Source of the DNA: an uncultured Algibacter sp.
GTDB lineage: Bacteria > Bacteroidota > Bacteroidia > Flavobacteriales > Flavobacteriaceae
Direction: 5' to 3'
DNA length: 64,000 nt
Assembly: GCA_947502405.1 (NCBI GenBank)
Contig: CANMZT010000001.1
Coordinates: 186,001-250,000, forward strand
Part shown: in pieces, positions 9,202 through 56,650 of the stretch
Layout: each line of letters begins with the position of its first letter
Numbering within the stretch: position 1 is the first letter of the stretch
Program-made: the position numbers and the translations under genes
Notes under the pieces: generated by a model
Seen by the model: only the letters and a program-made list of their open reading frames with translations
The model's database searches: none
Told to the model about the DNA's origin: nothing

Positions 9202-9232
9202 CAGTCACAAAGTTCAAAAACGTATTGAAATG

Positions 9233-9351
9233 TTATCAAGAAAGGTGGAGGGATTAGACCCGATGAAACCTTAGCAACCCTTTAAACTTATTAAAGAAGG
9301 TGCTAAATTCTACTTAAACCCCAATTCATTTATTGGTGTTTGGATAGATAA
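9233..9351 (+). ncRNA. SAM-I (S-box) riboswitch upstream of metY
   Basis: The conserved S-box core is directly readable: TTATCAAGAAAGGTGGAGGG (9233-9252), then GACCCGATGAAACC, TTAGCAACC, and AAGGTGCTAAATTC. The P1 helix is TTATC (9233-9237) with GATAA (9347-9351). The segment AACCCCAATTCA...TTGGTGTT forms the terminal stem. Binding of S-adenosylmethionine should reduce expression of metY and possibly the genes behind it. The expression platform is not obvious: there is only a weak TACAGTCTGTA hairpin with a following T/A run around 9361-9390, 90 bases before the metY ATG. Confidence 0.93.
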
Positions 9352-9476
9352 CCCAAAAAATTACAGTCTGTAGTTTTAAAAAAAATTCTTTATAACATTT
9401 TTCTATTTAGTTCACTTATTACAAGTGCATTTGAATTTTTGGTTTTTAACAATTAACTAAAAAAAACATTAGAAAA

Positions 9477-45571: not shown

Positions 45572-45678
45572 ATTTAAAATAATTTGCTCAAAAATAATTG
45601 AATAACTAACGTAATGGTAGATTTACTATAAAATCTTTAAATTTTTTTAGAAAAATAAAAAAAAGGTTTTATAGTATT

Positions 45679-45707
45679 TTGATTTCTTAAAATAATAATT
45701 ACTTTAG
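45679..45707 (+). promoter_or_regulatory. Promoter of the pheA attenuator transcript
   Basis: TTG at 45679-45681 and TACTTTAG at 45700-45707 (seven of eight bases of TAnnTTTG) are 18 bases apart. Transcription would start near 45714, only a few bases before the leader peptide ATG. Confidence 0.6.
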
Positions 45708-45717
45708 CCGTGTAATT

Positions 45718-45798
45718 ATGAGAACAACAGCATATTATACATACTTTAACTTTTTTTATTTCTTTTTTAGCAAAGAAATCGAGACGTTGTATGTATAA
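45718..45798 (+). CDS. Leader peptide of the aromatic operon (26 codons, Tyr/Phe-rich)
   Basis: ATG at 45718 and TAA at 45796-45798 bound a 26-codon frame starting MRTTAYYTYFNFFYFFFSKE. Ten of the twelve codons at positions 6-17 are Tyr or Phe (four Tyr, six Phe), then a charged SKEIE end. It overlaps segments 1 and 2 of the attenuator. Slow translation of the Phe/Tyr run would report low charged tRNA-Phe and tRNA-Tyr. The reading frame and codon content are seen directly; the control role is inferred from the position in front of the pheA operon and from the hairpins. Confidence 0.85.
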   Translation: MRTTAYYTYFNFFYFFFSKEIETLYV

Positions 45799-45851
45799 TT
45801 GAAAACAATATATTTTAATGCAAGTCTCGATGAAAATCGAGACTTTTTTTT
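45734..45851 (+). promoter_or_regulatory. Transcription attenuator of the pheA operon
   Basis: Segment 1 ATTATACATAC (45734-45744) pairs perfectly with segment 2 GTATGTATAAT (45789-45799). Segment 2 also contains ATCGAGAC (45778-45785), which pairs with segment 3 GTCTCGAT (45824-45831) and continues as TTG with CAA, giving the antiterminator. Segment 3 AAGTCTCGAT (45822-45831) pairs with segment 4 ATCGAGACTT (45836-45845) around a GAAA tetraloop and is followed by eight T (45844-45851), giving the terminator. Stalling in the Phe/Tyr run would mask segment 1, free segment 2 to pair with 3 and allow read-through into pheA. Confidence 0.88.
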
Positions 45852-45909
45852 GTTTAACTATTGGTAAAGCAAAATAAGAAGTAAAGTAATTTGAATTAAT
45901 AACTGAATT

Positions 45910-46737
45910 TTGATAAAAACAGTAGCCATACAAGGTGTAAGAGGATCGTTTCATCACATCGTATCTCAGGAGTTTTTTAATAAACCTGTTGATAGTATTG
46001 AGTGTATGACATTTGATAGGGTGGTAGATGCTTTAAGCAACAAAGAATGTGATGCTGCCATTATGGCTTTGGAGAATTCTATTGCGGGTTCAATAATTCC
46101 TAATTATGCATTAATTGATAAATATGGTTTGCATATTGTTGGTGAGCATTATTTAGATATTCAGCATAATTTAATGGCATTGCCAAATCAAAGTATTGAA
46201 GATATTAAAGAGGTGTACTCGCATCCTATGGCATTGTTGCAATGTAAAGAGTTTTTTAAAAAGCACCCACATATTAAATTAGTTGAGGATAAGGATACTG
46301 CAGAAGTTGCTGAACGTATTTCTGAAAACCAAACAAAAGGTATTGCTGCTATTGCTAGTGTAACTGCTGCAGAAATTTTTGAATTGAATATTCTAGCACA
46401 TAGCATCCAGACCATTAAGCATAACGAAACACGTTTTGTAATTGTTAAAAGAACTAATTCTGAAGTACCAGAGCTAGAAATTAACAAAGCTTCAATAAAA
46501 TTTGAAGCCAATCATAAACGCGGAAGTTTGGCTACCATATTAAATGTTATGAGCGATTGTAAATTGAATTTAACCAAAATTCAGTCGTTACCAATTGTTG
46601 AAACACCATGGAAGTACGCTTTTTTTGTGGATGTTACTTTTGAAACTTATGCAGATTTTAAAAAGGCTAAATCTGTTATAGATATTATGGGAGAAGGGTT
46701 TAAAGTTTTAGGAGAATATAAAAATGCGAAGCTATGA
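45910..46737 (+). CDS. pheA: Prephenate dehydratase
   Basis: A 275-residue enzyme turning prephenate into phenylpyruvate. The N-terminal catalytic domain carries VAIQGVRGSFHHIVSQEFF and the ALENSIAGSIIPNY block; the TRF motif appears as NETRFVIVK near residue 178. A C-terminal ACT domain (about 195-270, FEANHKRGSLATILNVMSDCKLNLTKIQS) gives feedback control by Phe. The start codon is TTG at 45910. The stop overlaps the aminotransferase start by four bases (ATGA). Confidence 0.95.
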   Translation: MIKTVAIQGVRGSFHHIVSQEFFNKPVDSIECMTFDRVVDALSNKECDAAIMALENSIAGSIIPNYALIDKYGLHIVGEHYLDIQHNLMALPNQSIEDIKEVYSHPMALLQCKEFFKKHPHIKLVEDKDTAEVAERISENQTKGIAAIASVTAAEIFELNILAHSIQTIKHNETRFVIVKRTNSEVPELEINKASIKFEANHKRGSLATILNVMSDCKLNLTKIQSLPIVETPWKYAFFVDVTFETYADFKKAKSVIDIMGEGFKVLGEYKNAKL

Positions 46738-47879
46738 TTGAGGTTGCAAACAGATTGCAAACGGTTGAAGAATACTACTTCTCAAAAAAATTAAGAGAGG
46801 TTAATTTACTTATTGCAAACGGTAAGCCTATCATTAATTTAGGTATAGGTAGTCCAGATTTACAGCCGCCAAAAAAGGTGCTATCTGCGATTTCTGCGAG
46901 TTTTGAGAATCCTATTGCGCACAAATACCAAAGTTACCAAGGACTTCCTGAACTTAGAGATGCAATTTCTAGGTTTTATAAAGAACATTTTTCGGTAAAC
47001 TTAAGTTCGGGTACAGAAATTTTACCTTTAATGGGAAGTAAGGAAGGGATTATGCATATTTCTATGACCTATTTGAATGAGGGTGATGAGGTGTTAATTC
47101 CTAATCCTGGATATCCAACATATCAATCAGTCACAAAATTAATTGGCGCAAAAGGAGTTTTATATGAATTGGATGAAGCTAATAATTGGATGCCTGATTT
47201 TAAAGCTTTAGAAAAAACAGATTTAAGTAAAGTGAAGCTTATGTGGGTAAATTATCCGCATATGCCAACTGGTGCTAAACCAAGTAAAACAGTTTTTGAG
47301 GAGTTAGTAGCTTTTGGAAAACGGAATAATATTTTGATAGTAAATGATAATCCATACAGTTTTATATTAAACGATAACCCAACAAGTATTTTAAGTGTTG
47401 ATGGTGCTAAAGATGTGTGTTTAGAACTAAACTCTTTAAGTAAAACATTTAATATGGCAGGTTGGCGAGTAGGTATGGTTGTAGGAGCTAGGGAGCATAT
47501 TAGTAATATTTTGAAAGTAAAAAGTAATATGGATTCTGGTATGTTTTACGGCATACAAAAAGGCGCTATTGAAGCTTTAAAATGCTCAAATATGTGGTTT
47601 GCAACATTAAATAATGTTTACAAACAACGTAGAGATTTAGTTTGGAAATTAGCCGATGCATTAAATTGTACTTATGATAAAGAAGCTTCTGGACTCTTTG
47701 TTTGGGCAAAGTTGCCTGCTTATTTAAAGGCTGAAGAGTTTATAGATTTGGTATTAAAAGAGAACCATATTTTCATTACACCAGGAACTATTTTTGGAAC
47801 TAAAGGTGAAGGTTATATTAGGTTTTCTTTATGTGCATCAACCGAAGTTTTAGAAGAAGCCATAGCAAGAGTAAAATAG
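46734..47879 (+). CDS. PLP-dependent class I/II aminotransferase (aromatic)
   Basis: A 381-residue aminotransferase of fold type I. The PLP Lys is in LSKTFNMAGWRVGMVVG near residue 236, NLGIGSPDLQPP at the N-terminus binds substrate, and NDNPYSFILN holds the conserved Asn/Tyr. Between pheA and tyrA it most likely transaminates phenylpyruvate and 4-hydroxyphenylpyruvate, or prephenate. It overlaps pheA by four bases and ends one base before tyrA. Confidence 0.88.
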   Translation: MIEVANRLQTVEEYYFSKKLREVNLLIANGKPIINLGIGSPDLQPPKKVLSAISASFENPIAHKYQSYQGLPELRDAISRFYKEHFSVNLSSGTEILPLMGSKEGIMHISMTYLNEGDEVLIPNPGYPTYQSVTKLIGAKGVLYELDEANNWMPDFKALEKTDLSKVKLMWVNYPHMPTGAKPSKTVFEELVAFGKRNNILIVNDNPYSFILNDNPTSILSVDGAKDVCLELNSLSKTFNMAGWRVGMVVGAREHISNILKVKSNMDSGMFYGIQKGAIEALKCSNMWFATLNNVYKQRRDLVWKLADALNCTYDKEASGLFVWAKLPAYLKAEEFIDLVLKENHIFITPGTIFGTKGEGYIRFSLCASTEVLEEAIARVK

Positions 47880-47880
47880 T

Positions 47881-48732
47881 ATGAAAAATATATACGCCAT
47901 AGGAGTCGGTTTAATTGGAGGGAGTCTTGCTATTGATATTAAGAAACAAAATCCAGATGTTGTTATTCATGGTATAAGTAGAAAAGATACCACGTTGAAT
48001 ACCGCTTTGGAATTAGGTTTAATTGATAAAAAGGCAACTTTAGATGATATTAAAGATGCAGATTTGGTAATTGTGTCTATTCCAGTTGATGCTACAGTGA
48101 AATTGTTGCCTACTATTTTAGATAAAATATCAGATACTGGTTTGGTAGTTGATGCAGGTTCTACAAAAGAAGCGATTTGTAAGGTTGTTGAAAACCATCC
48201 AAAACGAAGAAATTTTTTAGCAATGCACCCTATTGCTGGTACTGAACATTCTGGACCAACAGCAGCTATTGAAGGTTTATTTAAAGGAAAAACTAATATT
48301 GTTTGCGAGGTTGAAAAAACAACGTTTAAGCTTCAAGAAAAGGCTTTAAAATTGTTTACTGATATTGGTATGCGAATTAGGTATATGAATCCTGTGGAGC
48401 ATGATAAACATATTGCGTATGTGTCTCATCTTTCTCATATCAGTTCGTTTATGTTAGGAAAAACGGTTATTGATAAAGAGAAAAACGAACGTGATATTTT
48501 TGATATGGCTGGCAGTGGATTTGCATCTACGGTTCGATTAGCTAAGAGTTCTCCTGAAATGTGGACGCCTATTTTCAAACAGAATAAAAATAATGTTATT
48601 GAAACTTTAGAGGAATATATTAATAACCTGAATCGTTTTAAAGATTTGATGAAAGATGATAACTTTGATGCGATTTTTGATGAGATGAAAAGTACCAATC
48701 ATATAAAGGATATATTGAATGGGATAATTTAA
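47881..48732 (+). CDS. tyrA: Prephenate dehydrogenase
   Basis: A 283-residue NAD(P)-dependent enzyme. GVGLIGGSLAIDIKKQNP at residues 8-25 is the Rossmann motif, AMHPIAGTEHSGP around 116-128 contains the catalytic His, and AYVSHLSHISSFMLG is the helical-domain block. It converts prephenate to 4-hydroxyphenylpyruvate for tyrosine. There is no C-terminal ACT domain, so tyrosine feedback is not evident here. The next gene lies 240 bases downstream, after a heptamer repeat and a dispersed repeat. Confidence 0.94.
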   Translation: MKNIYAIGVGLIGGSLAIDIKKQNPDVVIHGISRKDTTLNTALELGLIDKKATLDDIKDADLVIVSIPVDATVKLLPTILDKISDTGLVVDAGSTKEAICKVVENHPKRRNFLAMHPIAGTEHSGPTAAIEGLFKGKTNIVCEVEKTTFKLQEKALKLFTDIGMRIRYMNPVEHDKHIAYVSHLSHISSFMLGKTVIDKEKNERDIFDMAGSGFASTVRLAKSSPEMWTPIFKQNKNNVIETLEEYINNLNRFKDLMKDDNFDAIFDEMKSTNHIKDILNGII

Positions 48733-48742
48733 GATTTTTACA

Positions 48743-48775
<33 letters not shown>

Positions 48776-48971: not shown

Positions 48972-50054
48972 ATGGAAAACAATAAAGAAATGAGAACCTG
49001 GTTAGATGATTTAGGATTAGATCATCCTTTAGTAATTGCGGGTCCTTGTAGTGCCGAAACAGAAGAACAAGTTTTAAGAATAGCTCATGAGCTAAAAGAC
49101 ACAGATGTAAGCTATTTCAGAGCTGGTATTTGGAAACCAAGAACACGCCCAGGAAATTTTGAAGGTGTTGGCGCTTTAGGTTTAAAATGGTTGCAAAAAG
49201 TTAAGGAAGAAACAGGAATGAAGGTTTGTACCGAGGTAGCTAATGCAGCGCATGTAAAATTAGCTTTAGAGCATGATGTTGATTTATTATGGATTGGAGC
49301 CCGATCTACAGTTTCTCCATTTATTATGCAAGAAATAGCAGATGCTTTGCAAGGTACAGATAAGCCAGTTTTAATTAAAAACCCAGTAAACCCTGATTTA
49401 TCTTTGTGGTTAGGTGGTATAGAAAGAATATACAGTTCTGGTGTTAAAAATATTGGTGCAATTCATAGAGGGTTTTCTACATACCAGAAAACGAAATATA
49501 GAAACATCCCGGAGTGGCAAATGGCTATTGAATTTCAAAACAGATTCCCAGATATTCCTTTAATTAACGACCCGTCTCATATCACAGGAAAACGTGATAT
49601 GGTTTTTGATGTGTCTCAAACGGCATTGGATTTAAATTTTGATGGATTAATGATTGAAACGCATTATGATCCTGATAATGCTTGGAGTGATGCTGCGCAA
49701 CAGGTAACACCTGATACTTTGGTTCAAATTATGAAGGATTTGAAAATTAGAAAAGAGTCTAATCAAGAGGAAGAGTATAATAGTGCGCTTAATAATTTGA
49801 GAGCTCAGATTGATGTTGTTGATAATCAAATTATTGAATTGTTAGGGCAACGTATGAAAGCCTCTGATGGTATTGGTGAGCTTAAGAAAAATAAAAATGT
49901 TGCTGTTTTACAGTCTAAACGCTGGAACGAGATTTTAGGTAAAATGGTACTTGAAGGAGAGCAACATGGTTTGAGCGAAGAATTTATATTAAGAATGTTT
50001 AAAGCGGTTCATCAAGAATCTATTAATCATCAAGAGAAGATTATTAATGGATAA
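48972..50054 (+). CDS. Bifunctional DAHP synthase / chorismate mutase
   Basis: A 360-residue fusion. Residues 10-260 are a KDO8P-type DAHP synthase (LVIAGPCSAETEEQVLRIA, FRAGIWKPRTRPGNFEG, LINDPSHITGKRD). Residues 270-355 are an AroQ-type chorismate mutase (LNNLRAQIDVVDNQIIELLGQRMKASDGIGELKKN). It condenses phosphoenolpyruvate with erythrose 4-phosphate and isomerises chorismate. The mutase probably also serves as a prephenate-sensing feedback domain, as in Bacillus. It closes the aromatic operon and ends in a terminator. Confidence 0.95.
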   Translation: MENNKEMRTWLDDLGLDHPLVIAGPCSAETEEQVLRIAHELKDTDVSYFRAGIWKPRTRPGNFEGVGALGLKWLQKVKEETGMKVCTEVANAAHVKLALEHDVDLLWIGARSTVSPFIMQEIADALQGTDKPVLIKNPVNPDLSLWLGGIERIYSSGVKNIGAIHRGFSTYQKTKYRNIPEWQMAIEFQNRFPDIPLINDPSHITGKRDMVFDVSQTALDLNFDGLMIETHYDPDNAWSDAAQQVTPDTLVQIMKDLKIRKESNQEEEYNSALNNLRAQIDVVDNQIIELLGQRMKASDGIGELKKNKNVAVLQSKRWNEILGKMVLEGEQHGLSEEFILRMFKAVHQESINHQEKIING

Positions 50055-56434: not shown

Positions 56435-56493
56435 AGCTACAAACTGTATATGTAGTTTAAAATTTAGTTGTAAGCCAGTAATGAAAACGCTAT

Positions 56494-56650
56494 TTGCGTT
56501 AGGGATTGCAACGGCATCCTTTTTAAAATTTTCAAAATAATACTTTGATTTTGAAGCATATAGTTAGAGTGTATCTATTTTTATTTCCAGAAACCTAAAA
56601 GGTTTTAAAAAGATATAGTGGAAAGCCCGACCCTTGTGGTAACGCCCAAA
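56494..56650 (+). repeat. Dispersed intergenic repeat, copy 8, interrupted
   Basis: GCGTTAGGGATTGCAACGGC starts at 56496 and the right end AAGCCCGACCC...TAACGCCC closes at 56647. Between them, about 56519-56612, is roughly 90 bases of AT-rich sequence unlike any other copy, ending near an AAACCTAAAAGGTTT palindrome. It looks like a copy split by an insertion. Confidence 0.7.

Follow-up and report, generated by a model that had tools for sequence, protein, structure and literature searches.

The window, i.e., the whole 64,000-nucleotide stretch of DNA that was analysed, carries on its plus strand a set of aromatic biosynthesis genes headed by pheA, in front of which lie a promoter, a short open reading frame rich in Phe and Tyr codons and a series of complementary segments. 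The closest named records to the locus are those of Algibacter and other Flavobacteriaceae. The features are as follows, the arms being named for their predicted roles.

45679-45707, plus strand: Bacteroidetes-type promoter, with TTG at 45679-45681 and the -7 box TACTTTAG (TAnnTTTG-like) at 45700-45707
45718-45798, plus strand: leader peptide ORF of 26 codons, MRTTAYYTYFNFFYFFFSKEIETLYV, with the sensor block at codons 6-17; kept by relatives
45734-45744, plus strand: arm 1 (protector, 5' side), within the sensor codons; 11 bp, perfect, with 45789-45799
45778-45789, plus strand: arm 2 (antiterminator, 5' side), 45778-45785 plus TTG 45787-45789
45789-45799, plus strand: arm 2' (protector, 3' side), overlapping the leader stop codon
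45821-45831, plus strand: arm 3, common to the antiterminator (with arm 2) and the terminator (with arm 4)
45836-45845, plus strand: arm 4 (terminator, 3' side), after a GAAA loop at 45832-45835; terminator -14.0 kcal/mol
45844-45851, plus strand: T tract of the terminator, eight T, two of them stem-paired
45910-46737, plus strand: pheA, prephenate dehydratase (Pfam), with a TTG start; ACT domain match under Pfam's cut-off
46734-47879, plus strand: aminotransferase class I/II (Pfam)
47881-48732, plus strand: tyrA, prephenate dehydrogenase (Pfam)
48972-50054, plus strand: DAHP synthase fused to chorismate mutase type II (Pfam), after a gap of 239 nt

The aromatic operon and its leader

Regarding the structural genes, the first-pass annotation of this DNA, made from the letters alone, had proposed an operon of pheA, an aminotransferase, tyrA and possibly DAHP synthase. 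Pfam agrees with this content, and the order pheA-aminotransferase-tyrA-DAHP synthase recurs in 29/59 of the relatives' clusters examined. Because the gene order recurs in relatives, the DAHP synthase/chorismate mutase gene probably belongs to the same operon. DAHP synthase serves both end products and is present in 52 of the 59 clusters; in the window's version it is usually a fusion with chorismate mutase. No hairpin-plus-T terminator was seen by eye in the gap between tyrA and DAHP synthase. The same gap contains, at 48744-48775 of the plus strand, a tandem repeat of the 7-base unit gacagga in about 4.5 copies.

The limits of the leader ORF (ATG 45718, TAA 45796-45798) were obtained by direct reading. 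Tyr or Phe occupies codons 6, 7, 9, 10 and 12-17, i.e., 10/12 codons of the sensor block, and a further Tyr stands at codon 25. Among the ORFs of the window (ATG start, 10-60 codons) it is the sole one to reach at least 8 F/Y per 12 codons, and 40 dinucleotide-shuffled windows gave 0.025 such ORFs per window at this threshold and none at 9 or more. The sequence of arm 1, attatacatac, matches the reverse complement of 45789-45799 exactly. Arm 2 pairs with arm 3 over 8 bp (45778-45785 with 45824-45831), a helix that TTG 45787-45789 and CAA 45821-45823 lengthen past the bulged G45786. The terminator stem comprises 45822-45831 and 45836-45845, and 58 nt separate the end of the T tract from the pheA TTG start (45910). 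The fold of 45711-45853 has a predicted energy of -31.8 kcal/mol (z -3.73), which is equalled by 0/200 dinucleotide shuffles. The first-pass annotation had described a 26-codon leader with ten Tyr/Phe codons, two mutually exclusive pairings and a GAAA-loop terminator with eight T; direct reading gives the same ORF and codons, both pairings were located, and the terminator is as described, with two of the T sitting in the stem. Viewed as a trp-type attenuator, the locus thus presents a short frame rich in end-product codons (frame and codons both read), an intrinsic terminator between the leader and the first gene, an antiterminator sharing an arm with that terminator, and a protector pairing over the sensor codons, which is partial in equilibrium folding. 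Its stop codon is placed such that a terminating ribosome would cover arm 2 and a stalled one would not, in a manner dependent on the footprint.

On the upstream side, the pattern TTG-N15-21-TAnnTT[TA]G precedes the leader in 69/83 near relatives, against 1.0 expected from shuffles. It had been proposed that this promoter starts the RNA at the leader ATG. The promoter itself stands, its boxes being present and conserved; the start has to be moved, since ten bases lie between the -7 box and the ATG, and the leader RNA probably begins a few nucleotides upstream of the ATG. The upstream gene, at 45571-44675 on the minus strand, is divergent and encodes an ABC-transporter ATPase (Pfam), in line with the earlier remark that no plus-strand gene upstream needs a terminator here. 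Regarding translation of the leader, Shine-Dalgarno sequences are described as unrecognised by ribosomes of the class Bacteroidia in a report on Flavobacterium johnsoniae (PMC9976891).

Conservation, covariation and range of the leader

The near-relative set comprised 90 pheA loci, namely 10 of the genus and the best 80 of 577, and is therefore biased toward close kin; omission of L011-L014 as duplicates left 86 distinct loci. In 84/86 of them a short F/Y-rich ORF precedes a terminator, so that the conservation of the short frame in Flavobacteriaceae, which the first-pass annotation had named as a check, is borne out. One of the two misses, L010, has a leader (MTKSYSYFSNWFYFFFSKKSETLYV) on reading, and in the other, L077, the contig begins within the leader. 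The terminator of the near relatives is close to AGTCTCGAT-GAAA-ATCGRGACTT plus a T tract. In L033, L042, L070 and others, the T tract leads directly into the pheA start, where the hairpin might also influence pheA translation. At the pheA start beside the T tract, 46 of the 84 near loci have ATG and 32 have TTG.

A covariance model, R1, built from 52 non-redundant near leaders, matches 219/299 family genomes at E 0.01, the weaker matches possibly including other hairpins, and is without a match in 80/299. Forty mid or weak matches were fetched from among the matches listed, which extend to near E 5e-5, and 39/40 lie upstream of pheA with an F/Y-rich ORF, one of these 39 (L121) having the same leader as L090. 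L194 and L202 carry the leader on reading though they are not among the R1 matches listed. Diverged family peptides, e.g., MTKTYFWNGFYFYFFFKGGTGLF, remain F/Y-rich. Antisense R1 matches were rejected as real elements, their stem coming from the palindromic terminator.

In the near relatives (n=52), the terminator 3:4 is paired in 100% of cells, arm 1:2' in 93.5%, and the consensus-extended 2:3 helix (45778-45785 plus 45787-45792) in 90.5%; the pair 45779/45830 forms in 16/52 and fails in 36/52. Variation in the arms of these relatives is mostly one-sided. Covariation of 1:2'+3:4 is slight, its score being reached by 1/500 shuffles, and no 2:3 covariation beyond shuffles was found among them (97/500 reach the score) because arm 3 is nearly invariant there. 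In diverged leaders, arms 2, 3 and 4 change together, e.g., from CGAGACT/AGTCTCG to CGGGACT/AGTCCCG, and L141, L147 and L148 show joint alterations of the three arms in other ways. As the covariance-model alignment of the diverged leaders (A4) misplaces arm 2 in some rows, an alignment-free swap test was chosen, in which each arm is scored against its own partner and against the partners of other leaders. The sample was 27 leaders thinned below 75% identity, with L073 left out (contig edge). None of 20,000 permutations reached the observed score for 1:2', 2:3 or 3:4 (6.5, 5.1 and 6.8 sd, respectively); relatedness remains in this test, but related partners also raise the swapped scores. Single-sequence shuffle tests gave weak signals, with 16/122 leaders at 1/200 or better and 51/122 at 10/200 for 2:3, and 12/38 of the diverged set at 10/200 for 1:2'. 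L121, as a repeat of the L090 leader, and L160, which is not pheA, were dropped from the single-sequence and swap tests. By the swap test, all three stems covary across the diverged leaders, which answers the earlier call for covariation in these stems.

Beyond the family, the PheA of the window matches 72/247 class genomes, its own included, and the upstream regions of 60 among the other 71 were taken as a class sample. An ORF with at least 6 F/Y in 12 codons precedes pheA in 41/60 loci (2.35 expected from shuffles), and at 7 or more the count is 37/60 against 0.25 expected. Eight of the 60 loci are from the same family and 8/8 have the leader; outside the family the leader is found in 33/52. 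A terminator is present in 37 of the 41 leader loci, none being listed for L212, L222, L226 and L232. The other 19/60 are without such an ORF; two of them, L205 and L207, combine a terminator with a shorter frame, TYFWFY, and among 10 of the 19 viewed downstream, 7/10 lack a DAHP synthase within about 5.9 kb. Order-level matches of a second model, R2 (96/246 genomes), were rejected as a leader count because weak matches take in other hairpins; the two strongest further R2 matches in the own genome, L312 and L313, have no Phe/Tyr-rich leader. Outside the class, a Phe/Tyr leader was found in 2/20 pheA loci examined. These two, L315 and L316, are of the same phylum, and their pheA is closer to that of the window (45% and 44% identity) than the other 18 (39% or less); perhaps they reflect transfer of gene plus leader, or contamination.

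Two leader-terminator modules stand in series before pheA in L217, L222 and L241. Those of L217 lie at about -316..-187 and -161..-31 before pheA, and the tandem modules of L217 and L222 are in GC-rich sequence. Both hairpins of L241 score well; the second hairpin of L217 (12.8) and those of L222 (13.4 and 15.8) are weak, and these pairs are complete only with a laxer finder. L195 has a second F/Y-rich ORF with just a weak hairpin (13.7) that starts slightly upstream of that ORF. It is possible that tandem attenuators give graded or stricter control. Tandem attenuators are reported for mgtCBR of Salmonella (PMC3641672).

The proposed switch and its alternatives

Conservation, covariation in diverged leaders, geometry and predicted folds agree with the trp-type logic put forward in the first-pass annotation, and the pheA leader very probably controls the aromatic operon as a ribosome-mediated attenuator of the trp/pheL type. 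This verdict comes from comparative evidence, i.e., sequence, conservation, covariation, geometry and predicted folds, from which we infer the start, the stalling, the termination and the amino acids sensed. In the proposed mechanism, RNA polymerase would start a few nucleotides before the leader ATG, and a ribosome would load on the leader without a Shine-Dalgarno sequence. When Phe-tRNA and Tyr-tRNA are plentiful, the ribosome would reach the stop codon and cover arm 2, arm 3 would pair with arm 4, and transcription would end near 45851. When either charged tRNA is short, the ribosome would stall in codons 6-17, disrupting arm 1 and leaving arm 2 just beyond its leading edge; the free arm 2 would pair with arm 3 ahead of the synthesis of arm 4, and transcription of the operon would proceed. 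With no translation, the arm 1:arm 2' hairpin would tend to withhold arm 2, favouring termination.

The geometry of the leaders was compared in 116 of 122, six being dropped (arm 2 off its usual place, or no ORF found). Counted from the first base of the last sensor codon, arm 2 begins after 11-15 nt (5th-95th percentile). With a leading edge of +12, a ribosome stalled at the last sensor codon covers no arm-2 nucleotide in 84/116 leaders; with +15, it covers at least one in 115/116 (two in 69, none in 1). At the stop codon, a ribosome would mask 6 or more of the 8 arm-2 nucleotides in 115/116 leaders if its footprint is -18..+15, in 113/116 if it is -17..+13 and in 83/116 if it is -15..+12. 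Grouped in 3-nt bins, 107 leader stops fall after the arm-2 start (bins 6 to 24) and 9 before it (bins -9 and -6). Eight of the nine early stops come directly after the sensor block (L024, L033, L037, L042, L044, L070, L123 and L128), and the six early-stop leaders printed (L024, L033, L042, L070, L123 and L128) largely retain the downstream RNA, untranslated; the tail thus seems to be preserved for its RNA and not for its peptide. These leaders are natural mutants that separate peptide from RNA constraints.

Folding of the window leader with arm 4 unmade and a ribosome placed on the last Phe codon gives the 2:3 helix at -16.2 kcal/mol. Once arm 4 is present, the terminator (-17.3 kcal/mol) wins over the antiterminator by about 1 kcal/mol, and therefore the switch must be kinetic. 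With a ribosome at the stop codon, the terminator forms at -14.0 kcal/mol. Folding was extended to 121 of the 122 leaders, one with no ORF found being dropped. The 2:3 helix is predicted in 121/121 in the stalled state before arm 4, and the terminator in 121/121 without a ribosome and likewise in 121/121 with a ribosome at the stop codon. As 2:3 is still predicted in 73/121 when arm 4 is unmade and no ribosome is present, the protector is not absolute. Shuffled arm-2 zones reach 5 or more pairs with arm 3 as well, in 57% of trials, so the count of 121/121 says little by itself; the informative figure is the energy: real arm-2 zones average 8.5 kcal/mol more stable than shuffled ones, and in 118/121 at most 1/20 shuffles are equally stable.

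Regarding the amino acids sensed, codon counts from the motif to the stop of the 84 near leaders are 415 for Phe, 275 for Tyr and 46 for Trp, and 39 class leaders contain 186 F against 153 Y codons. The excess of F over Y in both sets, together with the use of Phe codons by the pheL leader of Escherichia coli, would suit a switch that senses Phe only, its Tyr codons being near-neutral replacements. Such a switch is nevertheless unlikely, since in the class leaders about 45% of the F+Y codons are Tyr, whether or not the cluster contains tyrA, a share that appears to be above a neutral expectation. The Tyr share there is 0.44 in the 22 loci whose cluster contains tyrA and 0.47 in the 17 where it is absent, L218 and L231 of the 41 being omitted (ambiguous or cut) and L221 being cut at 4.2 kb. 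Because the share is nearly equal in the two groups, the Tyr codons do not follow tyrA, and an origin of these codons in the presence of tyrA was rejected. Dual sensing of Phe and Tyr is the preferred reading and is plausible.

It is very unlikely that the leader peptide itself acts, as an arrest peptide sensing a metabolite, or that attenuation is translational instead of transcriptional. Near relatives keep the residues of the peptide rather well, which counts for this alternative; however, the diverged leaders preserve F/Y richness and not sequence, F and Y interchange, and the untranslated tail retained by early-stop leaders makes the C-terminal residues look RNA-constrained. A hairpin hiding the pheA start could operate at the several loci where the T tract abuts it, but a T-tract terminator comes with all 84 near leaders. 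Also very unlikely is that pheA is preceded by an intrinsic terminator and no more, or by a structured RNA that is not translated (riboswitch, protein-bound leader), with the F/Y frame as a T-rich by-product: a window that is AT-rich (34% GC) and a locus with no Rfam gathering hit leave some room for it, but an F/Y run of such density is absent in the 40 shuffled windows and persists in diverged leaders with other nucleotides, GC-rich sequence included, arm 2 lies at an almost constant distance from the last sensor codon, a ribosome of the widest footprint at the stop codon would cover most of arm 2 in 115/116, the upstream side has no plus-strand gene needing a terminator, and Rfam gives no T-box or riboswitch match at the locus.

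Known systems and implications

The attenuator of E. coli pheA consists of a Phe-rich leader, a terminator and competing pairings upstream of the gene, and the attenuator proposed for the window resembles it in all three. It differs in that its leader mixes in Tyr codons, in that its operon adds the aminotransferase, tyrA and DAHP synthase/chorismate mutase, and in that initiation without a Shine-Dalgarno sequence is expected. The Rfam family Phe_leader (RF01859) aligns over its full length (1-125) at 45731-45851 with 25.1 bits (E 0.04) against a cut-off of 55, and by Rfam's rule the leader therefore falls outside this family. Neither the window leader nor seven test loci gave a hit above the cut-off of any Rfam family, and a search for T-box and riboswitch families at the pheA leader gave no match. 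Bacteroid-trp RNA (RF01692) is known in the same phylum (Weinberg et al. 2010, PMC2864571) and has been likened to the E. coli trp leader (PMC6414381); it belongs to another operon with other sensor codons, and it has no match at 45600-45950 up to E 10. The 'pheA' motif of Weinberg et al. is listed for Actinobacteria (PMC2864571).

Other elements of the own genome were noted in passing. At L310 (C20:26234-26361, minus strand), Bacteroid-trp scores over the Rfam cut-off, with a Trp-rich leader, MKSILNKTWWWCFRN. Upstream of hisG, at L311 1265-1318, a His-rich short ORF, MTFTQTHHHFYICSQAK, is followed by what looks by eye like a terminator hairpin, and this leader is probably a his attenuator. 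The presence of these Trp-rich and His-rich leaders in the genome speaks for the attenuator reading of the pheA locus. On its plus strand, the window contains a SAM riboswitch (S box) at 9230-9354 (74 bits) and a Flavo-1 RNA motif at 56491-56636 (47.5 bits), a motif to which PMC9723704 could assign no function.

In the literature, Guerin et al. 2021 reported 'strong clues' for leader-peptide attenuation at amino-acid operons of Flavobacterium psychrophilum, as well as a conserved structured 5' element of pheA in this species and other Flavobacteriaceae with no Rfam hit (PMC9723704). By comparison of descriptions, that element is very likely the same as the one described here. The description of the pheA element in PMC9723704 contains neither a leader sequence nor arms, covariation or a distribution outside the family. 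The first-pass annotation knew of no described example for this operon in Flavobacteriaceae; this has to be amended insofar as the element was briefly reported (PMC9723704), and it holds for the anatomy and mechanism, for which the papers searched gave no account. Among open-licence literature, no paper with a leader sequence or mechanism for a Bacteroidetes pheA was found. A transcriptome paper on Bacteroides thetaiotaomicron mentions long 5' UTRs with short ORFs that recall leader peptides, pheA not being named (PMC7366714), and the main texts of two F. johnsoniae papers (PMC6847099 and PMC9976891) contain neither 'leader peptide' nor 'attenuat'. Thus, within the literature searched, the kind of leader is known and the element has been glimpsed; what is added is its anatomy, three-way covariation, geometry, spread and tandem forms.

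The switch appears to be common among the relatives of this marine bacterium and hardly described there. Counts of loci, as distinct from a tree, incline us slightly to the view that a Phe-plus-Tyr attenuator is ancestral in Bacteroidia, reading two end products, tandem in some lineages and served by ribosomes independent of Shine-Dalgarno sequences. If this is true and the device works, transcription and translation would be tightly coupled in Bacteroidia. As ribosome-mediated attenuation needs a ribosome that paces RNA polymerase, this coupling could be tested directly with a short reporter. The early stops, tandem modules and diverged arms are ready-made natural mutants. The leader element could become an Rfam family, and it offers a testable device for phenylalanine and tyrosine synthesis in a large phylum whose amino-acid regulation has been little studied.
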